A DNA stretch of 64,000 nt from Desulfurispora thermophila DSM 16022 (GTDB lineage: Bacteria; Bacillota; Desulfotomaculia; Desulfotomaculales; Desulfurisporaceae). The translations under genes and the position numbers were made by a program. This document shows, in pieces, positions 9,888 through 28,494 of the stretch. Location of the stretch: NCBI RefSeq assembly GCF_000376385.1, contig NZ_AQWN01000002.1, forward strand, positions 124,115 through 188,114, written 5' to 3'. The notes under the pieces were generated by a model that saw only the letters and a list, made by a program, of their open reading frames with translations, did not search any database and was not told the origin of the DNA. Positions within the stretch are counted from its first letter, which is position 1. The number at the start of each line of letters is the position of its first letter.

Positions 9888-11775
9888 GCAAAACCTGGCC
9901 AGGTTGGTGCAGGAGGCCGCCGGGCGTTACGGAGATGGGAAAGAAACGCCGGTGGTTATGGTGGGGGCGGCTACCTGCGGCCGGGCGGCCGGCGCACTGG
10001 CCGTGCTGGACGCGGTAAGTCAAACTGTACAGCGGCTGGGTTTACCGGCCGAGGTGCGCGAAGTAGGCTGCCTGGGACATTGCTATGCCGAGCCGCTGCT
10101 GGTGGTGGCCAAACCCGGCTGGCCGGCGGTGGCTTACGGTTATGTGGACGAAGGTACGGCCGGGCGGATTGTGGAGGATTTTCTGGTCAATGACGACCCC
10201 TGTATAGAGTTTGCTCTGGCCGCTCTGGAGCCCAACGAACTCATACCCACCTTTGCCGATTTTGCCCGGGGTGCCTGTGAGCAAAAAGTGGTGTTAGAAA
10301 AGTGCGGCCTGATTGACCCGCAGAACATTGATCACTACCTGGCTACGGGTGGTTACGCGGCGTTGGCCCGCTCTCTGATGCAGGAGCCGGAGGCCGTGCT
10401 GGAGGAAATTGTGCGTTCCGGGCTGCGCGGCCGGGGGGGAGCCGGCTTTCCCACCGGGCGGAAATGGCAGACCTGCCGGGAAGCCGAGGGCGAAATTAAA
10501 TATTTAATCTGCAACGCCGATGAAGGAGATCCCGGCGCTTTTATGGACCGCACCATATTGGAGTCCAACCCCCACCTCCTGTTGGAGGGAATGGTGATAG
10601 CCGCCCATGCTATTGGGGCCACGCAGGGGTATATCTATGTGCGGGCCGAATATCCGCTGGCCGTGCAGCGCCTGCAGACAGCTATAAAGCAGGCCCGGAG
10701 CAAGGGGTTGTTGGGTGAAGATATTCTGGGCAGTGGTTTTGGCTTTGACATTGCTGTTTTCCAGGGGTCGGGGGCTTTCGTCTGCGGTGAGGAAACCGCC
10801 CTGATTGCTTCCCTGGAGGGTGAGCCAGGGCTACCCAGGGTGAGGCCGCCCTTCCCGGCCCAGGCCGGGTTGTGGGGACGCCCCACGGTGATCAACAACG
10901 TCAAGACGTTGTCCTATGTGCCGCATATCATCAGCAAAGGAGCGGACTGGTTCCGCTCCCTGGGCAGTGAACAAAGTCCGGGTACGGCCATTTTTGCCCT
11001 GGCCGGCAAGGTGGTCAACACCGGTCTGGCCGAGGTGCCCATGAGCACCACATTGCGCCAGCTCATTTTCGAAGTAGGTAGCGGTATAGCCAACGGCCGG
11101 CAGTTCAAGGCGGTGCAAATTGGCGGGCCGTCCGGTGGTTGCCTCCCGGAAGAGGTGTTGGATACGCCCATTGATTTCGACAGCCTGCGGCAGGCCGGGG
11201 CCATGATGGGGTCGGGCGGGTTGGTGGTGCTGGACCAGGATGATTGCATGGTGGAAATCGCCCGCTTCTTTTTGGACTTCACCCGCCAGGAATCCTGCGG
11301 CAAGTGCACATTCTGTCGTCTGGGCACCGAGCAGATGGTACGTATTTTGGATCGCATCACACGCGGTCAGGGTCGCCCCGAGGATCTGGATTTACTGGAA
11401 AACCTGGCCCGGTCAGTGCAGGCCGGTTCACTTTGCAACCTGGGGCGCACGGCGCCCAACCCGGTGCTGAGCACGCTACGTTATTTCCGCCATGAATATG
11501 AAGCGCACATCAAGGAAAAACGTTGTCCGTCTCTCATGTGTAAAGATTTGATCGCTTACTACATTCTGCCCGACAAGTGCGAGCGCTCCTGTGACGCCTG
11601 TGTGGGCAGTTGTCCTGTGGAAGCCATTGCCAATAATGAAGACCGCATTAAGGTGATTGACCAGGCTAAATGTGTCAAGTGTGACAGTTGTCGCGTTGCC
11701 TGTCCACCCCAATATTCTGCTGTGGTAAAGCTGTCGCCGCCTGATGCGGTGCCGGGAGGGGGTGGCGTGAAGTGA
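9880..11775 (+). CDS. NADH-binding flavoprotein subunit (HndC/NuoF-like)
   Basis: A 631-residue subunit of the bifurcating-hydrogenase type. Domain order: N-terminal thioredoxin-like [2Fe-2S] domain (GAATCGRAAGA, GCLGHCYAEP); FMN/NADH-binding core (GLRGRGGAGFPTGRKW, CNADEGDPGAFMDR, SGAFVCGEETAL); SLBB-like region; [4Fe-4S] helical domain (ESCGKCTFCRLG); and two C-terminal [4Fe-4S] ferredoxin motifs (CDACVGSCPVEAI, CVKCDSCRVACPP). It oxidises NADH or reduces NAD and relays electrons through the two flanking subunits. ATG at 9880 is internal to the end of the preceding gene. The extra ferredoxin tail is typical of HndC/HydB rather than respiratory NuoF. Confidence 0.95.
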   Translation: MIEQNLARLVQEAAGRYGDGKETPVVMVGAATCGRAAGALAVLDAVSQTVQRLGLPAEVREVGCLGHCYAEPLLVVAKPGWPAVAYGYVDEGTAGRIVEDFLVNDDPCIEFALAALEPNELIPTFADFARGACEQKVVLEKCGLIDPQNIDHYLATGGYAALARSLMQEPEAVLEEIVRSGLRGRGGAGFPTGRKWQTCREAEGEIKYLICNADEGDPGAFMDRTILESNPHLLLEGMVIAAHAIGATQGYIYVRAEYPLAVQRLQTAIKQARSKGLLGEDILGSGFGFDIAVFQGSGAFVCGEETALIASLEGEPGLPRVRPPFPAQAGLWGRPTVINNVKTLSYVPHIISKGADWFRSLGSEQSPGTAIFALAGKVVNTGLAEVPMSTTLRQLIFEVGSGIANGRQFKAVQIGGPSGGCLPEEVLDTPIDFDSLRQAGAMMGSGGLVVLDQDDCMVEIARFFLDFTRQESCGKCTFCRLGTEQMVRILDRITRGQGRPEDLDLLENLARSVQAGSLCNLGRTAPNPVLSTLRYFRHEYEAHIKEKRCPSLMCKDLIAYYILPDKCERSCDACVGSCPVEAIANNEDRIKVIDQAKCVKCDSCRVACPPQYSAVVKLSPPDAVPGGGGVK

Positions 11776-20448: not shown

Positions 20449-20493
20449 ATGGGCAAAATTAAATTACATTATAATATAAAGAAGGACACAGGC

Positions 20494-21069
20494 ATGTATG
20501 GAACCAGAATTGTCATTGCCGATGCCGATGTCGCTTTTCGGCGGGCTTTAAAAGAGGTCATGCGGCACCTGGACTATGTTTGTGTGGGTGAAGTGGGCGA
20601 GGCCAGGGCGGCTCTGCAGTTGGTTTTTCAGACTGAACCGCATCTGGTGGTTTTGGACCCGCATTTGCCCGGCAGTGAAAGCGTTGACATTTGTACGATT
20701 ATTGACGAGCATAAGGTAGCTCCCATTGTGGCGGCAGTGGAAGCAAAGCAGGAGGTAATTCAGGAGGTGGCCGCCTATCCGGGAGTATACGGTCTGCTTT
20801 TGAAGCCCTTGCACGAGGATGCGCTCTGCCCGGTGGTGGAGGTGGCCCTGACCTCTTTTGGCCGGGTGAAAAACCTGCAGCGGGAACTGAAAGATTTGCG
20901 GCGTGAACTGGAAACGCGCAAGCTGGTGCAACGGGCCAAGCTGTTGCTCATGGAAAAGAAGCAAATGACCGAAAAAGATGCCCACAGATATTTGCAAAAG
21001 CTGGCCATGGACAACGGTTTGCCCCTGGCCAAGGTGGCTCAGCGGGTTATCCTGGCTTTAAGCCTTTAG
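20494..21069 (+). CDS. ANTAR-domain response regulator, diverged copy
   Basis: A 191-residue receiver-ANTAR protein. The receiver keeps the acidic pocket (IADAD), phospho-acceptor Asp (VVLDPHLPG) and Lys (LLLKPL). The C-terminal three-helix ANTAR domain (ETRKLVQRAKLLLMEKKQMT, ending QRVILALSL) binds dual-hexaloop RNA and relieves termination in the family. Compared with the second ANTAR protein at 24777 its RNA-binding helices are clearly diverged. It may act on the variant leader just downstream (21266-21347). ATG 20494 follows GAAGGA; an upstream in-frame ATG at 20449 has no ribosome site. Confidence 0.85.
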   Translation: MYGTRIVIADADVAFRRALKEVMRHLDYVCVGEVGEARAALQLVFQTEPHLVVLDPHLPGSESVDICTIIDEHKVAPIVAAVEAKQEVIQEVAAYPGVYGLLLKPLHEDALCPVVEVALTSFGRVKNLQRELKDLRRELETRKLVQRAKLLLMEKKQMTEKDAHRYLQKLAMDNGLPLAKVAQRVILALSL

Positions 21070-21218: not shown

Positions 21219-21246
21219 TTGCAAATGATACGATTGCTGGTAAAAT
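21219..21246 (+). promoter_or_regulatory. promoter upstream of the glutamine-synthetase-like gene leader
   Basis: TTGCAA at 21219-21224, 16-bp spacer, TAAAAT at 21241-21246. It would start transcription just before the hairpin leader at 21266. Confidence 0.55.
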
Positions 21247-21265: not shown

Positions 21266-21347
21266 GGGACAACGGCGTCCCAACACGGGCCTGGTGGGAA
21301 AGTTTTGGGCTTTTAAGCCAGCCTTGCCTGTGTGCGGGCTTTTTTTG
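21266..21347 (+). promoter_or_regulatory. ANTAR-type leader variant before the GS-like gene
   Basis: First hairpin GGGAC-AACGGC-GTCCC (21266-21281) has a hexaloop with A1 and G4, the ANTAR signature. The expected second hairpin is only GGC-TTTTAA-GCC, whose loop lacks A1/G4. AAGCC then pairs with GGCTT before a T run at about 21341, forming a weak terminator. An alternative long pairing, ACACGGGC with GCCTGTGT, would break the terminator. It is a degenerate member of the leader set seen at 24565, 26912 and 28403. Confidence 0.5.
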
Positions 21348-21402
21348 TTTTTTGTCGCCTTTTTGAGTGCCGCGCCACTGGATGGAGGTATGGTTAAACA
21401 TC

Positions 21403-22725
21403 ATGCGCTTTTATACAGCCGAGGATGTGCTGGAAAAAGTCAAGGAAAACAATGTCAAGTTTATCCGCCTGCAGTTTACCAGTATGCTGGGCACACTGAA
21501 AAACCTGGCCATTACTGTGGAGGATTTGCCCCGCGCTTTGAGTGGCCAGGTGCGCTTTGACAGCTCGGTGGTACTGGACCGGGTGGGCAGTTATGAATCG
21601 GACATATATTTGATGCCCGATCCGGGCACCTTTATGATTTTTCCCTGGCGGCCGCGGGAAGGGGCGGTGGCCCGCCTGCTCTGTGATGTCTTGCAGCCCG
21701 ATGGTACACCCTTTTTTGCCTGCAGCCGCTCCATATTGAAAAAGTGCCGGCAAAAGGCCATGGCCGGCGGCTACCAATTACAGGTGGGGGCGGAAGTCGA
21801 GTTTTACCTGTTTCACCAGGACGAGCAGGGACGACCGCTGACCAGCACGCACGACCGGGCTGGTTATTGCGATCTCACGCCGGTGGACAGGGGAGAAAAC
21901 GCCCGCCGGGATATGGTGCTCACCCTGCAGGAAATGGGCTTTGATGTGGCCACCTCCCACCACGAGATAGGACCTGGCCAGCACGAGATCATTCTCAAGG
22001 ATGATGATGTACTGGCCATGGCCGACAACCTGATCACATTTAAGTTTGTGGTGCGTACCATTGCCGGGCGACATGGCCTGCATGCCTCGTTCATGCCCCG
22101 GCCATTGAACTACGCCAATGGCAGCGGCTTGCACCTGTTCCTTTCCCTGTGGAGGGAAAATGCCAATGTGCTGGCTGATCCCCGGGGGCCGCGTGGCCTG
22201 AGCTCGCTGGCCGAACAGTTTATTGCCGGCATCTTGCATCACGCCCCGGCTCTGACAGCGCTGGCCAACCCGCTGGTCAACAGTTACAAGCGCCTGCGCT
22301 GCAGTCCCATGGTGCCCTGTTTGACCGGTTGTGCTGAACAGCTCCGGGCGGCCATGTTGCGCGTGCCGGCCGGCCGGGGAAGCGATACCCGCCTTTTGCT
22401 GCGCAGTCCCGATCCGGCCGGCAACCCCTACCTGGTGCTGGCTGCGGTGCTGGGCTGCGGGCTGGACGGGGTGGAGAAAGGGCTGGTGCCCCAGTGGCTG
22501 CCCGAGGAGGATCCGGCCGAGAAGTGGGAGCAGCTTTACCGGGAGCATTGTTTGCCGGTGGATCTGGCCGGGGCCCTGCAGGCCCTGGAGGGGGACCGGC
22601 TGTTGCTGGATTTGCTGGGACAAAAGCTGGCCGGCCACTACCTGCAATACAAACAGGAAGAGTGGCAGCGTTACCAGTCCACGGTGCACGAGTGGGAGAT
22701 AAACGAGTATCTGGTCAATTATTAA
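21403..22725 (+). CDS. glutamine-synthetase-like protein lacking catalytic residues
   Basis: A 440-residue protein collinear with the two intact glutamine synthetases of this window. Kept: the EVE and HHE...GQHE metal motifs, GSGLH and NSYKRL. Lost: the flap Glu (GYEAP in active enzymes, SPMVP here) and the metal-binding Glu of RIELRNPD (RLLLRSPD here). The region NRSPLIR is also scrambled. It is probably not a working synthetase; it may regulate the others by mixed assembly or ligand sensing, or use another substrate (inference). ATG 21403 is 14 bases from GGAGG, a longish spacing. It follows an ANTAR gene and the variant ANTAR leader. Confidence 0.85.
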   Translation: MRFYTAEDVLEKVKENNVKFIRLQFTSMLGTLKNLAITVEDLPRALSGQVRFDSSVVLDRVGSYESDIYLMPDPGTFMIFPWRPREGAVARLLCDVLQPDGTPFFACSRSILKKCRQKAMAGGYQLQVGAEVEFYLFHQDEQGRPLTSTHDRAGYCDLTPVDRGENARRDMVLTLQEMGFDVATSHHEIGPGQHEIILKDDDVLAMADNLITFKFVVRTIAGRHGLHASFMPRPLNYANGSGLHLFLSLWRENANVLADPRGPRGLSSLAEQFIAGILHHAPALTALANPLVNSYKRLRCSPMVPCLTGCAEQLRAAMLRVPAGRGSDTRLLLRSPDPAGNPYLVLAAVLGCGLDGVEKGLVPQWLPEEDPAEKWEQLYREHCLPVDLAGALQALEGDRLLLDLLGQKLAGHYLQYKQEEWQRYQSTVHEWEINEYLVNY

Positions 22726-22885
22726 TGCTGGCGCGGGATTTTTCCACACCAGTGGTTTGCCGGGGACAAACATAGAAGCTATTTACTAAATAATTATAAA
22801 ATAAGGGATGCAGGGCGGCGTAAAAAACAATACAAAAGCCGCCTGTCAAATAAAAATAATATGTTTTGATCAGGAGGATGGAAAA

Positions 22886-24466
22886 ATGAGTTACAGCAAA
22901 GGAGTCAATGCCAGCGCGGCTACTTTGACCAAGCTGCGCACCGGGGAAAGTCGCTGCCCCTACAGCGGCATGTGTGTCACCTGTCTGGACGGTTGCCCGG
23001 GACTGTGTGAAATTGGCAAGTCCGCCGTACGCGGCAAGGAAGTGCTTTACCCGCAACCTTTTGGCAAAATTACTTCGGCTTCGGAAAAGGACTATCCCAT
23101 TGACTACTCCCACTTCAATATCATGGGTACCGCCGTGGGAGCGCACGGCATTGAACCAGACCCCGATAAAGCCATCTTCCCGGCTGTAAATCTGGAGACC
23201 CGTCTGGGGCAGAATGGCGACCTGGTGCTGGATCTGCCCATTGTGGTTGCGGCCATGGGTTCCACCAATGTGGCGGCCGACAACTGGGATCACCTGGCGG
23301 CCGGCGTGGCCATTGCGGGTTGCGGTATTGCCATTGGCGAAAACGTGTGCGCCATGGACCCCAATGTGGAAATCAAGGATGGCCGGGTGGTGCATTCTCC
23401 CAACCTGGAGCGCCGGGTGAAGGACTTCCAGAACTGGTCGCACGGCCGGGGCTTTGTGGCTGTCCAGGCCAACGTGGAAGACACCACGCTCAAAGTGCAG
23501 GAGTATGCCATTGAAAAACTGGGCGTGGAAGCTGTAGAGTTGAAGTGGGGCCAGGGGGCCAAGGACATTGGCGGCGAAGTCAAACTGAACACTCTGGAGC
23601 GCGCCCTGCAGCTGAAAAGCCGTGGTTATATTGTTTTGCCCGATCCCACTGATCCCAAAGTGCAGGAAGCATACAAAGCCGGTGCTTTCGCCGAGTTTGA
23701 ACGCCATTCCCGCATCGGCATGGTGGAATACGAGTCCTTCATGGCCCGGGTGGAAGAACTGCGCCGCTGCGGTGCCAGGTATGTTTTCCTGAAAACCGGC
23801 GCTTACCGGCCGGCCGACCTGGCCCGCGCGGTCAAATACGCCTCGGACGCCAAATTGGACCTGCTCACAGTGGACGGCGCCGGCGGCGGTACCGGCATGA
23901 GCCCCTGGCGGATGATGAATGAATGGGGTATTCCCACTGTTTACATCCAGGCTCTGCTGGTCAAGTATCTGGACCGTCTGGCCGCCAAGGGTGCCTATGT
24001 GCCACCGGTGGCCATTGCCGGCGGCTTCACTCTGGAAGACCATATGTTCAAAGGCCTGGCCATGGGCGCGCCCCACATCAAGGCCATTGGTATGGCCCGT
24101 TCCGCCCTCACCGCCGCCATGGTGGGCAAAAACATCGGGGAAGCCATCAAGTCGGGCAAGATTCCGGCCGAGTACAAGAAATACGGTGAGTCCCTGGAGC
24201 AAGTCTTTGTCTTTGCCTGCGAGCTGAAAAACAAGCTGGGCGCGGAAGCCTTTGCCAAACTGCCGGTGGGTGCCATTGGCGTGTACTCCTACTTCGAGCG
24301 CCTGGCCCAGGGGCTGCGCCAGTTCATGTGCGGCGCCCGCAAGTTTGCTTTGAGCTACATCACCCGCGACGACATTGCCGCCCTGACCAAAGAAGCGGCG
24401 GAAATCTCCGGCATTCGCTACATCATGGACCTGGATGCCGAGGAAGTGGAGCAGATTCTGGGTTGA
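22886..24466 (+). CDS. stand-alone glutamate synthase FMN domain protein
   Basis: A 526-residue protein equivalent to the central FMN/Fe-S synthase domain of glutamate synthase (motifs EDTTLKVQ, ELKWGQGAKDIGGEV, TVDGAGGGTGMSPW, AIAGGFTLEDH), without the glutaminase domain. A Cys-rich N-terminus (CPYSGMCVTCLDGCPGLCEIG) could hold an Fe-S cluster. Archaeal-type glutamate synthases are built from such separate domains. It may use ammonia or a separate amidotransferase and make glutamate or a related product (inference). ATG 22886 follows AGGAGG. It lies between the GS-like gene and the second ANTAR operon, and a complete gltB-gltD pair lies 4 kb downstream. Confidence 0.85.
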   Translation: MSYSKGVNASAATLTKLRTGESRCPYSGMCVTCLDGCPGLCEIGKSAVRGKEVLYPQPFGKITSASEKDYPIDYSHFNIMGTAVGAHGIEPDPDKAIFPAVNLETRLGQNGDLVLDLPIVVAAMGSTNVAADNWDHLAAGVAIAGCGIAIGENVCAMDPNVEIKDGRVVHSPNLERRVKDFQNWSHGRGFVAVQANVEDTTLKVQEYAIEKLGVEAVELKWGQGAKDIGGEVKLNTLERALQLKSRGYIVLPDPTDPKVQEAYKAGAFAEFERHSRIGMVEYESFMARVEELRRCGARYVFLKTGAYRPADLARAVKYASDAKLDLLTVDGAGGGTGMSPWRMMNEWGIPTVYIQALLVKYLDRLAAKGAYVPPVAIAGGFTLEDHMFKGLAMGAPHIKAIGMARSALTAAMVGKNIGEAIKSGKIPAEYKKYGESLEQVFVFACELKNKLGAEAFAKLPVGAIGVYSYFERLAQGLRQFMCGARKFALSYITRDDIAALTKEAAEISGIRYIMDLDAEEVEQILG

Positions 24467-24533: not shown

Positions 24534-24564
24534 TAGCCTATAAAAAAGAAAGCCATACTGTTTG

Positions 24565-24636
24565 GATACAGCGCTGTATCTACAATTGGCAACGATGCCC
24601 TGACAGGGATGTTATGTCTCTGGGCAGGGCTTTTTT
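24565..24636 (+). promoter_or_regulatory. ANTAR dual-hexaloop antiterminator leader (ANTAR-glnA operon)
   Basis: Hairpin 1 is GATAC-AGCGCT-GTATC (24565-24580). Hairpin 2 is TGAC-AGGGAT-GTTA (24601-24614). Both hexaloops have A1 and G4, as required by ANTAR proteins. Hairpin 2 competes with the terminator GCCCTG (24597-24602)/CAGGGC (24625-24630), which is followed by six Ts. The first gene downstream is itself an ANTAR regulator, so this is an autoregulatory switch. Confidence 0.88.
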
Positions 24637-24776
24637 ATTTGACCGGCGCTGGCCACGTCCGGTCAAAGGAGGGCAGGATTTGTTATTGTATGGATGTTTT
24701 GCCGGTTGAAAAAGAAGGGTTATAATAAATAAACCGGGCGGCAGGATTTAAATAGCAGTTGGGGAGGCACACCGAG

Positions 24777-25361
24777 GTGGCCGAGTACAGGATTGTGCTG
24801 GTAGACAGTGATGCCAGCTGGAGAAAAAACTTCAAAGCCATGCTGGTAAAGCTTGGTTACTGGGTGATCGGGGATACCAGCGATGGCCTGACGGCGTTAA
24901 AGATGGTGCGGGCGCGCCAACCCGACCTGGTTATTGTCGATGCAGCTTTAAGCGGTATCGACGGTTATGAAATAGCCAGGATCGTCTATGAAGACAAGCT
25001 GGCCCCGGTGATTATGACCACTTCCTCCCCCAGTCTTGTACTGGTGGAAAAGGCCCGGGAAGCCAGGATTGCCTCGTTGCTGGTTAAACCGGTGGATGAA
25101 GCAACTCTCCTGCCGCTGATTGAACTGACCATGACCAACTACCAGGAAATCGTGCGCCTGGAAAATCAGGTCAAAGAGCTGAAAGAGGCACTGGAAACCC
25201 GTAAACTGGTGGAAAAGGCCAAGGGCATTTTGATGCAGAAGCTGGGGCTCAGTGAGCCGGAAGCCTTTAAGAGGATGCAGCGGCAGAGTATGAACAAGCG
25301 CATTTCCATGCGCCAGGTAGCCGAGGCCATAATTATGACCTACAGTCTGCAGGGCGATTAA
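24777..25361 (+). CDS. ANTAR-domain response regulator (transcription antiterminator)
   Basis: A 194-residue receiver-ANTAR protein. The receiver has LVDSD, VIVDAALSG and LVKPVD; the ANTAR domain is canonical (ETRKLVEKAKGILMQKLGLS ... SMRQVAEAI). By family knowledge, phosphorylation causes dimerisation and binding to two-hexaloop RNA, preventing terminator formation. Matching targets lie at 24565, 26912 and 28403, so it probably switches on itself, both glnA genes and gltB-gltD. GTG 24777 lies 9 bases after GGGGAGG; TTG 24759 lies before that site. No cognate kinase is adjacent; the pseudokinase at 34774 is the nearest sensor-like gene. Confidence 0.92.
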   Translation: MAEYRIVLVDSDASWRKNFKAMLVKLGYWVIGDTSDGLTALKMVRARQPDLVIVDAALSGIDGYEIARIVYEDKLAPVIMTTSSPSLVLVEKAREARIASLLVKPVDEATLLPLIELTMTNYQEIVRLENQVKELKEALETRKLVEKAKGILMQKLGLSEPEAFKRMQRQSMNKRISMRQVAEAIIMTYSLQGD

Positions 25362-25405: not shown

Positions 25406-26737
25406 ATGGAAAAAGCTATAAAAAACGAGATTATGAGCAAGGCCAGGGAAATGCAGGTAAAATTCATCCGCCTGCAGTTTACCGATATTTTTGGTGTATT
25501 GAAAAACGTGGCCATTACTATTGAACAGCTGGAAAAAGCTTTGGACGGCGAGTTGATGTTTGACGGTTCCTCCATTCATGGTTTTACCCGCATTGAGGAG
25601 TCCGACATGTACCTGCGTCCCGACCCCAACACCTTTGTGGTGTTCCCCTGGCGGCCGCGGGACGGGGCGGTGGCCCGTCTGATCTGTGACGTATATAACC
25701 CGGACGGTACGCCCTTCGAAGGTGACCCGCGCTACGCTTTAAAGAGAGCCATTGCCGAGGCCAAAGAGCTGGGTTACACTATGTATGTGGGACCCGAGTG
25801 CGAATTTTTCCTCTTCCAGGTGGATGAAGAAGGCCGTCCCACCCTCAAGACCCACGACAAAGCCGGTTATTTCGATCTGACGCCGGTGGACATGGGCGAG
25901 AACGCCCGCCGTTCCATGGTGCTGACGCTGGAAGAGATGGGTTTTGAAATTGAGGCCTCTCACCACGAGGTAGCGCCCGGTCAGCATGAAATTGACTTTA
26001 AGTATTCCGATGCGCTGGATACGGCGGATAAGATCGTCACCTTCAAATTTGTGGTGCGCACCATTGCCCAGCGGCACGGGCTGCATGCCACCTTTATGCC
26101 CAAACCCATCTTTGGTATCAATGGTTCCGGCATGCACACCAACCAGTCGCTTTTCCGGGGCAATGAGAACGCTTTTTACGACCCCACCGCGCCGGATGGG
26201 CTGAGCCAGGTTGCCAAATATTATATTGGTGGGATTATGAAGCATGTGCGGGCCATGGCCGCTGTGACCAACCCCACGGTCAACTCTTACAAGCGTCTGG
26301 TGCCCGGTTACGAGGCCCCGGTCTACATCGCCTGGTCGGGTCGCAACCGCAGTCCGCTGATCCGCATCCCGGCCAAGCGCGGCCTTTCCACCCGTATTGA
26401 ATTGCGCAACCCCGACCCGTCCTGCAACCCCTACCTGGCTCTGGCGGTCTGCCTGAAAGCCGGTCTGGACGGGATTAAGAACCAGATTGTCCCGCCGCCG
26501 CCCTGCGACCGCAACATCTATGTGATGACCGAAGAAGAGCGGGCCGAGCTGGGCATTGGCAGCCTGCCGGCCAGTTTGATCGAAGCGGTGGAAGAAATGA
26601 AACGGGATGAAGTAGTGCGCGCGGCTCTGGGCGAGCACATTTTCACCAAGCTGGTGGAAGCGCAAACCAAAGAATGGGATGCCTTTCGCACCCAGGTTCA
26701 TCCCTGGGAAGTGGAAGAGTATTTGAGCAAGTTTTAA
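25406..26737 (+). CDS. glnA: glutamine synthetase type I (copy 1)
   Basis: A 443-residue GSI-alpha type enzyme (glutamate + NH3 + ATP to glutamine). All active-site motifs are intact: [36 protein letters not shown] flap, NRSP and [14 protein letters not shown]. There is no adenylylation Tyr loop of the GSI-beta type. ATG 25406 follows AAGGATG. It is 44 bases after the ANTAR gene with no terminator between, so the two are cotranscribed and both depend on the 24565 leader. A terminator follows. Confidence 0.96.
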
Positions 26738-26911: not shown

Positions 26912-27000
26912 GGTACAACGTGGTACCATATAAGGGCAAGGGAGCCTGCTGGCACAAAGAGAGGCGAGGTGTGCCTCTTTGGTGTAAGGGGCTTTTTTTT
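26912..27000 (+). promoter_or_regulatory. ANTAR dual-hexaloop antiterminator leader (glnA copy 2)
   Basis: Hairpin 1 is GGTAC-AACGTG-GTACC (26912-26927). Hairpin 2 is GGGC-AAGGGA-GCCT (26934-26947). Both loops have A1/G4. The 3' arm of hairpin 2 overlaps the start of a long terminator (AGCC and CACAAAGAG pairing with CTCTTTGGTG and GGGGCT) ending in eight Ts, directly before the glnA start. A possible -10 TATACT is at 26861-26866. Confidence 0.88.
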
Positions 27001-27004
27001 GTAA

Positions 27005-28366
27005 ATGAATTATAGAAAGGTGTGCAAACCCCAAGTGCCTCGACTGTCGAACGACGATGTCCGCAGTTTAGCTAAAGAGCTGGGTGTAAAGTTTATCCGC
27101 CTGCAGTTTACCGACATTTTCGGCGTATTGAAAAACGTTTCCATTACGGTGGAACAGCTGGACAAGGCGCTGGCCGGCGAGCTGATGTTTGACGGCTCTT
27201 CCATTGAAGGGTTCGTGCGCATCGAAGAATCCGACATGTATTTGCGTCCCGACCCCAGCACTTTTGTGGTGTTCCCCTGGAAACCGCGCGATGGGGCGGT
27301 GGCCCGTCTGATCTGCGATGTGTACACCGCCGATGGCGAGCCCTTTATTGGCGACCCGCGCTATGTATTGCGGCGGGCGGTGCAGGAGGCGGCGGCCATG
27401 GGTTACACCATGAATGTGGGGCCCGAGGCCGAGTTTTTCCTCTTCCATGTGGATGATGACGGGCGGCCCACTACCATTACCCACGACCGGGCCGGTTACT
27501 TTGACTTGACCCCGGTGGACCTGGGCGAAAACGCCCGCCGCGACATGGTGCTGACACTGGAGCAAATGGGTTTTGAGATTGAAGCTTCTCACCACGAGGT
27601 GGCTCCCGGCCAGCACGAGATAGATTTCAAGTATTCCGACGCCCTGGACATAGCCGACAAGGTGGTTACATTCAAGTTTGTAGTGCGTACCATTGCCCAG
27701 CGGCACGGTCTGCACGCCACCTTTATGCCCAAGCCCATTTTCGGCATTGCCGGGTCGGGCATGCACTTAAACCAGTCGCTGATGAAAAACGGTACCAACT
27801 GTTTTTACGATCCGGACGCACCCATGCAGCTCAGCCAGGAGGCCCTGTGCTATATTGGTGGTTTGATGCGGCATATCCCCGCCATCACCGCCATCACCAA
27901 TCCCACGGTCAACTCCTACAAACGCCTGGTTTCGGGTTATGAGGCGCCGGTTTATGTGGCCTGGTCGGCCCGCAACCGCAGCCCGCTGATCCGGGTACCG
28001 GCCAAGCGGGGCCAGTCTACTCGCATTGAGCTGCGCAGCCCGGATCCCTCCTGCAACCCGTACCTGGCCCTGGCCGTCTGCCTGCGGGCCGGTCTGGACG
28101 GGATTAAGAACCGGATCATGCCGCCCCCGCCCTGTGACCGCAATATTTATGAGATGACGGCGGCGGAAAGGGAGGAACTGGGCATAGGCAGTCTGCCGGC
28201 CGACCTGGATCAGGCCATGCGGGCGCTGGAGCAGGACGAAGTGGTCAGGGATGCTCTGGGCCCCCATGTGTACGAGCGCTTTATGGCGGCCAAGCGCATT
28301 GAGTGGGACCGCTACCGCATCCAGGTGCATCCCTGGGAAATTGAGGAGTACCTGAGCAAGTTTTAA
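27005..28366 (+). CDS. glnA: glutamine synthetase type I (copy 2)
   Basis: A 453-residue GSI-alpha enzyme closely related to copy 1 and with every catalytic motif intact ([54 protein letters not shown]). The start is uncertain: ATG 27005 lies directly after the terminator T run with no ribosome site, while GTG 27035 lies 14 bases after AGAAAGG. The gene is read after antitermination at the 26912 leader and probably continues into gltB through a second ANTAR checkpoint. Confidence 0.94.
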
Positions 28367-28402: not shown

Positions 28403-28494
28403 GTACAAGGGTGTACGCATTCGGGCAAGGACGTCCGAAAAGAAAGGAGCACACAGTTTATTACTGTGCCGTCCTTTCTTTTCGGGCGTTTTTT
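28403..28494 (+). promoter_or_regulatory. ANTAR dual-hexaloop antiterminator leader (gltB-gltD)
   Basis: Hairpin 1 is GTAC-AAGGGT-GTAC (28403-28416). Hairpin 2 is TTCGGGC-AAGGAC-GTCCGAA (28420-28439). Both hexaloops have A1/G4. CCGAA of hairpin 2 is also the 5' end of a very long terminator stem (CCGAAAAGAAAGGA with TCCTTTCTTTTCGG) followed by a T run at 28489. No promoter is visible between glnA copy 2 and this leader, so it appears to gate read-through from glnA. Confidence 0.9.

Follow-up and report, generated by a model that had tools for sequence, protein, structure and literature searches.

A glutamine synthetase (GS)-like gene of Desulfurispora thermophila DSM 16022, here called psGS, appears to encode a pseudoenzyme which, as we propose with a probability of about 40%, serves as a 2-oxoglutarate (2-OG) sensor that gates its partner ANTAR1, an antiterminator, in the manner of the NasS–NasT and AmiC–AmiR pairs; the ligand binding, the complex, the catalytic inactivity and the direction of the switch we infer from sequence and by analogy with those pairs. 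The psGS proteins have lost the flap Glu and ligands of the second metal, evolve under purifying selection, have an ANTAR gene as constant neighbour and a hairpin/terminator leader in front of their gene, and have kept the residues that contact 2-OG in archaeal GS. All coordinates refer to the window, i.e. the whole stretch of 64,000 nt from contig NZ_AQWN01000002.1 that was analysed, with its features listed in Table 1.

Table 1. Features of the psGS region, in window coordinates
Feature	Position	Strand	Basis or remark
ANTAR1, receiver and ANTAR RNA-binding domain, proposed psGS partner	20449..21069	+	Pfam Response_reg and ANTAR
Promoter-like site (weak, 9/12 matches, TG before second hexamer)	21219..21246	+	5' of leader
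ANTAR-type single hexaloop hairpin GGGAC-AACGGC-GTCCC, loop A1 and G4	21266..21281	+	Equivalent in 42/48 loci
Intrinsic terminator region, T run 3' of hairpin	21282..21345	+	Fold
psGS, GS-like probable pseudoenzyme, 440 aa	21403..22725	+	Residue comparison, Pfam, AlphaFold2 model
Stand-alone FMN glutamate-synthase-domain protein, 3' of psGS	22808..24466	+	PF01645, 42 bits
ANTAR2 regulator, upstream of intact glnA pair	24759..25361	+	Pfam
GlnA1, intact type I GS	25406..26737	+	602 bits; all catalytic residues kept
Dual-hexaloop ANTAR leader and terminator before GlnA2	26912..26999	+	Motif search, fold
GlnA2, intact type I GS	27005..28366	+	590 bits; catalytic residues kept

Loss of catalytic residues from an intact GS fold

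The reading frame of psGS begins with an ATG at 21403, a GTG at 21367 being a possible alternative, and its product is 49% identical to GlnA1 and 52% identical to GlnA2. It contains the Gln-synt_N and Gln-synt_C domains of Pfam, and an AlphaFold2 model, for which a 29-row psGS alignment was used as input, had an intact GS fold (pLDDT 85.9, pTM 0.90), with bacterial and archaeal GS as its closest PDB matches (TM ≈0.9). Also present were the substrate arginines R297, R315 and R334, as well as E131, E133, E188, E195 and H244, which we take to correspond to E129, E131, E212, E220 and H269 of the Salmonella enzyme, the residue roles and the assignment of single residues to metal 1 or metal 2 being presumed to be as in that enzyme. 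The original prediction, made from the DNA letters, that the protein keeps the GS fold and most metal motifs was thereby borne out.

As also claimed in that prediction, the flap Glu and the metal-ligand Glu of the RIELRxPD motif, retained in both GlnA1 and GlnA2, were absent from psGS, which has Met303 and Leu332 at these positions. Two further substitutions were a Gly62 at the position of B. subtilis Arg62 and a Phe246 replacing the Asn of 'GSGMHxN' (the Asn/His site). One of the three metal-2 ligands is gone from the window protein, with the glutamate-binding arginines present. Scored against the NCBIfam model of type I glutamate–ammonia ligase (TIGR00653), psGS reached 384.7 bits, below the curated whole-protein cut-off of 429.15 bits, with GlnA1 at 602.2 and GlnA2 at 590.5; by score, flap Glu and metal-2 Glu alike, psGS thus fell outside type I GS. 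Among its PDB matches was also 2j9i (E 2e-11), presumably Lengsin, a GS-like protein of the vertebrate lens that is regarded as non-enzymatic, as proposed here for psGS; unlike psGS, Lengsin is remote, eukaryotic and without a tie to a regulator.

psGS as a family under purifying selection

A genome scan gave 75 loci, with a psGS group of 49 proteins including that of the window. In a 72-row tree (48 psGS and 24 canonical GS, six long or odd rows of an earlier set having been dropped) the psGS clade was set apart by a branch supported at 100/100, and in a 94-row tree that included the long branches L004 and L048 the identical split received a value of only 10. The end branch of the window psGS was long (0.81 in the 72-row and 1.08 in the 94-row tree), without a close relative in the sample.

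The flap Glu was absent in 48 of the 49 psGS proteins, the exception (L046) having a flap of different build that contains a Glu, and the equivalent of the metal ligand E357 was absent in 43. At least two metal-2 ligands were lost in 39 proteins, one in four (including that of the window) and none in six. The clade was found by profile score in 28 of 40 genomes of the order; besides that of the window, these were 27 genomes with 28 loci (two in G024), which were checked by residue. In this sample, which shares species with the first one, the flap Glu was absent at 27 of 28 loci, with the flap of the exception, L105, resembling that of L046. Only 10 of 149 genomes in a phylum-wide sample passed a strict psGS score, and the psGS proteins of the six that lie outside the order all lacked the flap Glu, with E357 kept in five; loss of the flap thus seems to have preceded that of the second metal site. 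The same losses therefore recurred among relatives, as the original prediction had put up for checking, and are not due to chance.

The long end branch of the window copy would agree with a pseudogene in early decay, but the frame of 440 codons is intact, identical substitutions are found in dozens of relatives, the leader is conserved, and purifying selection acts on the whole family, with dN/dS values of 0.05–0.17 (NG86, 14 close pairs) that were somewhat higher than those of GlnA in most comparable pairs. From the intact frame, the recurrence across a separate clade and the dN/dS values we regard a decaying pseudogene as ruled out, with next to no probability left to it, and the view of psGS as a pseudoenzyme and not a pseudogene was upheld. 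A retained fold combined with family-wide loss of catalytic residues under purifying selection is what characterizes pseudoenzymes of the GS superfamily, and psGS is, as judged from its residues, very probably a conserved pseudoenzyme devoid of synthetase activity.

It is quite unlikely that psGS is still an enzyme, either a ligase or a catalyst of another reaction, using a different substrate at a one-metal site. Gamma-glutamyl amides other than glutamine are made by many GS paralogues, the metal-1 ligands E131 and E212 (Salmonella numbering) and the arginines are mostly retained, and E357 is present in the early-branching L025, L032, L037, L039, L040 and L121–L125; against this, the metal-2 ligands have given way to unrelated residues (H269 to N, K, A, S or T, and E357 to I, V, L, T or A) with no new conserved set, and the equivalents of K352 and R355 vary.

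Far stronger erosion was also found. A much more degenerate psGS paralogue in genome G037, which adjoins ANTAR1, reads EEADGRPGSRRHNPIEW at 17 sites (taken from the alignment and uncertain at single places), most catalytic residues being replaced, and has lost metal ligands and several arginines, including the equivalents of R344 and R359. An extremely degenerate GS-like gene (L116:2816-4111, minus strand) has an ANTAR neighbour and lies upstream of an FMN glutamate synthase, its product having all eight 2-OG residues and almost no catalytic ones. A second kind of GS-like protein, at L114:6074-7393 and L115:5769-7184 (the same as L108 and L109), has His or Leu for the flap Glu and retains E357 and the 2-OG residues; the genes lie 3' of an ANTAR gene and 5' of an apparent glutamate dehydrogenase (by eye), and perhaps represent an independent GS–ANTAR sensor pair.

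Gene neighbourhood of psGS

The gene order ANTAR1–psGS–FMN glutamate synthase–ANTAR2–glnA–glnA–gltB was recurrent. An ANTAR gene adjoined psGS in all of the 48 other loci, in 46 of them on the same strand and in two (L026 and L029) divergently on the opposite strand, and five loci of the Thermincola type had the frames of the two genes overlapping or abutting. Within the order sample, an ANTAR neighbour was found at 27 of 28 psGS loci; the exception was L097, the second copy of G024, where neither an ANTAR gene nor an FMN synthase adjoins.

The phospho-acceptor Asp was found in only 22 of 47 ANTAR1 orthologues, with the Thr/Ser and Lys of the receiver being variable and the RNA-binding residues of the ANTAR domain nearly invariant; in the window ANTAR1 the acceptor Asp is present and the Thr/Ser lost. 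The ANTAR2 receiver was likewise eroded (Asp in 10 of 35). Where the receiver is a pseudo-receiver, an ANTAR protein may work through a modulator protein, AmiC being that of AmiR (PMC3369931), and NasS–NasT is a second case of a sensor with an ANTAR protein, NasS being NrtA-like. The reading that assumes least is that psGS acts together with ANTAR1, which we judge moderately probable. Mirror-tree analysis gave partial r values with psGS of 0.69 for ANTAR1 and 0.81 for ANTAR2, a co-evolution that does not appear specific for ANTAR1.

Alternatively, psGS could serve the FMN glutamate synthase as an accessory subunit, the synthase being one which is encoded 3' of it in 40 of 48 loci and whose protein shows the FMN domain alone, no other Pfam domain having been matched. 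We consider this very unlikely, since the synthase was absent within reach at the other eight loci (L016, L047 and L048 among them being stretches that end early) and since it persists where psGS has been lost: both L113, with psGS gone, and L074, with a psGS remnant, still have ANTAR1, the leader and the FMN synthase. These two loci also show that ANTAR1 can do without psGS. At L113:5196-5560 the ANTAR leader, kept after the loss of psGS, is now found directly before the FMN glutamate synthase.

The original prediction had also suggested that psGS may regulate GS, which it could do by entering mixed rings with GlnA1 or GlnA2, or by capping them, and thus tuning their activity. Both the predicted fold and the C-terminal tail, with H429, W431, E432, Y436 and L437 invariant, are as in GS, and since GS has its active sites at subunit interfaces (PMC10799026), an inactive subunit would affect the one next to it. 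The genes around psGS are nevertheless ANTAR1 and the FMN glutamate synthase, it has a leader of its own, and the sequenced stretch examined around psGS was in some cases found to contain no canonical GS, many of these stretches being short; such mixed rings therefore appear unlikely.

A single-hexaloop leader in front of psGS

That psGS has its own leader, as stated in the original prediction, was confirmed: a hexaloop hairpin lies 5' of a terminator whose T run ends near 21345, and relatives have TTGATT-like and TATAAT-like pairs (by eye) at the place corresponding to the promoter-like site. An equivalent hairpin, mostly GGGC-AANGNN-GUCC, was found in 42 of the 48 other loci, and the six without it were those where psGS directly follows the ANTAR gene. 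With the window included, the loop had A1 in 42 and G4 in all 43 leaders, and a T run followed in 42, with only one match to the pattern in 2150 shuffled leaders. The stem in the window has an A-U pair where the family has G-U, a compensating change. Taken together with the adjacency in 48 of 48 loci, the ANTAR-type leader in 42 of 48 supports the link between psGS and the ANTAR regulators.

According to the minimum-energy folds of most relatives, the 3' arm of the hairpin is taken into a strong terminator stem, so that hairpin and terminator would be mutually exclusive. In the fold of the window leader, the hairpin coexisted with a terminator stem 3' of it, the two scarcely overlapping, which makes the switch less plain there. 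Across the genome of the window the hairpin motif occurred once, at the psGS leader, and a backwards control motif likewise once.

Dual hexaloops were found in none of the 48 psGS leaders, versus 16 of 80 leaders of canonical GS using the identical rule; the psGS leader has the loop A1 and G4 of ANTAR target RNAs and a single hairpin in place of two. A search of Rfam with window positions 10000–36000 gave four matches (E up to 5), none of them in the psGS leader or near its gathering score. The minimal ANTAR target has been redefined as one hexaloop, and the dual motif is reported to need both hexaloops to stop termination (PMC8934654). Putative ANTAR leaders before glutamate synthase and other nitrogen genes of D. 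reducens and D. acetoxidans have been described (Ramesh 2012, PMC3369931), which are dual hexaloops, unlike the psGS leader; the term 'glutamine synthetase' does not occur in the main text of that paper. Further hairpins with A1/G4 hexaloops were seen in the window before gltB (28403–28439), and between the FMN synthase and ANTAR2 (24563–24614), just 5' of a T-rich, terminator-like stretch.

Glutamine or 2-oxoglutarate as the ligand of psGS

The suggestion of the original prediction that psGS may sense glutamine was weakened. In the inhibited GS of B. subtilis, glutamine is held by the flap residue Glu304 and locked by Arg62 (PMC9249791); the flap Glu is gone in nearly all psGS proteins, Arg62 is retained in only 11 of 63, and the window protein has Met and Gly in place of the two residues by which GS senses glutamine in the GlnR/TnrA circuit. 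With both lost or eroded, classical glutamine sensing through the Glu304/Arg62 route is unlikely, and we disfavour it.

The allosteric 2-OG site of the GS from M. thermolithotrophicus (MtGS) lies between subunits and is formed by Phe18, Arg20, Arg88, Arg174, Arg175 and Ser191, with Ala34 and Val94 leaving room for the ligand; the site was absent from the bacterial homologues compared in that paper (PMC10799026). Matching residues are used by GlnA1 of M. mazei, which forms dodecamers with 2-OG. The window psGS has all eight, as F20, R22, A36, R83, V89, R168, R169 and S185, and the set was complete in 63 of 63 distinct psGS proteins versus 54 of 82 canonical GS (with Lys for Arg88 in 17 and Ser for Ala34 in 13 of the 82), the register having been set by the ends of phmmer matches to 8ool together with B. 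subtilis Tyr20 and Glu36, and not by residue-by-residue alignment. Canonical GS had 287 well-conserved positions, and the 81 of these that were invariant in psGS included all eight 2-OG residues (hypergeometric P ≈3e-5, a nominal value and not a true probability since the sequences are related). R22, R168, R169 and S185 are also found in the GS of B. subtilis, where the 2-OG site is reported to be absent, and the weight of the comparison therefore rests on F20, A36 and R83. The degenerate G037 paralogue has kept 8/8 of these residues despite having lost nearly every catalytic one; the intact GlnA1 has an identical site, so that its retention in psGS may be inherited or structural. On these residues 2-OG is the best lead for a psGS ligand, which we put forward tentatively.

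As a further possibility, psGS could inform ANTAR1 as a non-catalytic sensor of glutamate or glutamine bound in the old active site. The substrate pocket does survive in part, with D53, R297, R315, R334 and G240 (Salmonella D50, R321, R339, R359 and G265) invariant in 63 of 63 distinct proteins, yet the residues that hold glutamine are lost or eroded, and in the G037 paralogue the R344- and R359-equivalents and the metal ligands have disappeared with the gene context unchanged, making this alternative rather unlikely.

As a separate observation, GlnA1 and the canonical GS of many Clostridia are GS of the active type having the complete archaeal 2-OG site, and such proteins may, judging from their sequences, be 2-OG-activated GS enzymes of Bacillota.

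Discussion

We propose that psGS is a GS which no longer catalyses its reaction and was retained in the role of a ligand-sensing subunit. Being GS-like by predicted fold, it in all likelihood still assembles into the GS ring, and the allosteric pocket between neighbouring subunits would bind 2-OG, which is the usual signal of nitrogen shortage. The bound ligand would change how the ring is shaped or assembled, such that ANTAR1 is captured or released, and free ANTAR1 would bind the hexaloop hairpin of the psGS leader and keep it out of the terminator, with antitermination allowing transcription to reach psGS and also the FMN glutamate synthase. The proposal is tempered by the co-evolution not appearing specific for ANTAR1, by psGS being losable and by the three PII proteins, known sensors of 2-OG, that are encoded in the genome of the window.

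The closest known systems are those of AmiC–AmiR and NasS–NasT, whose sensors derive from solute-binding proteins, AmiC having a fold of that type. The proposed psGS pair resembles them in that the psGS gene adjoins an ANTAR gene, in its relation to nitrogen metabolism, in an ANTAR protein with a receiver-like domain, which in those systems need not be phosphorylated and may not need it here either, and in a leader with hairpin and terminator (PMC3795266, PMC3369931, PMC3369936); it differs in that the sensor is a GS. A regulatory GS acting via protein contact, as proposed for psGS, has a precedent in the feedback-inhibited GS of Bacillota controlling GlnR and TnrA, where an active enzyme moonlights through Glu304 and Arg62 (PMC9249791); unlike that enzyme, psGS is apparently non-catalytic, lacks Glu304 and Arg62 and has an RNA-binding protein as its candidate partner. 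With MtGS it shares all reported 2-OG contact residues, and with GlnA1 of M. mazei the matches to F24, R26, R87, R172, R173 and S189 (by offset), both of these being, unlike psGS, active enzymes.

Going further, psGS may represent a new class of nitrogen sensors, a possibility that we rate as somewhat less likely than not, in which a dead GS ring reads 2-OG and directly gates an ANTAR protein acting on a one-hexaloop leader. Such a class would have arisen stepwise: the flap Glu would have gone first (Thermincola-type), the second metal site next and, in the G037 lineage, almost the entire active site, the pocket staying intact. No report of an inactive bacterial GS tied to ANTAR proteins or to 2-OG was found in a literature search that had most subscription journals outside its coverage.

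If the proposal is true, the annotation of psGS as 'glutamine synthetase' in Desulfotomaculum-type genomes is likely wrong as to activity. The ANTAR regulators of these anaerobes would then have a concrete input signal, and 2-OG would be sensed by a GS-type protein in bacteria. It would then also follow that a central metabolic enzyme has become a dedicated regulator keeping only its allosteric site, with sensing split from catalysis.
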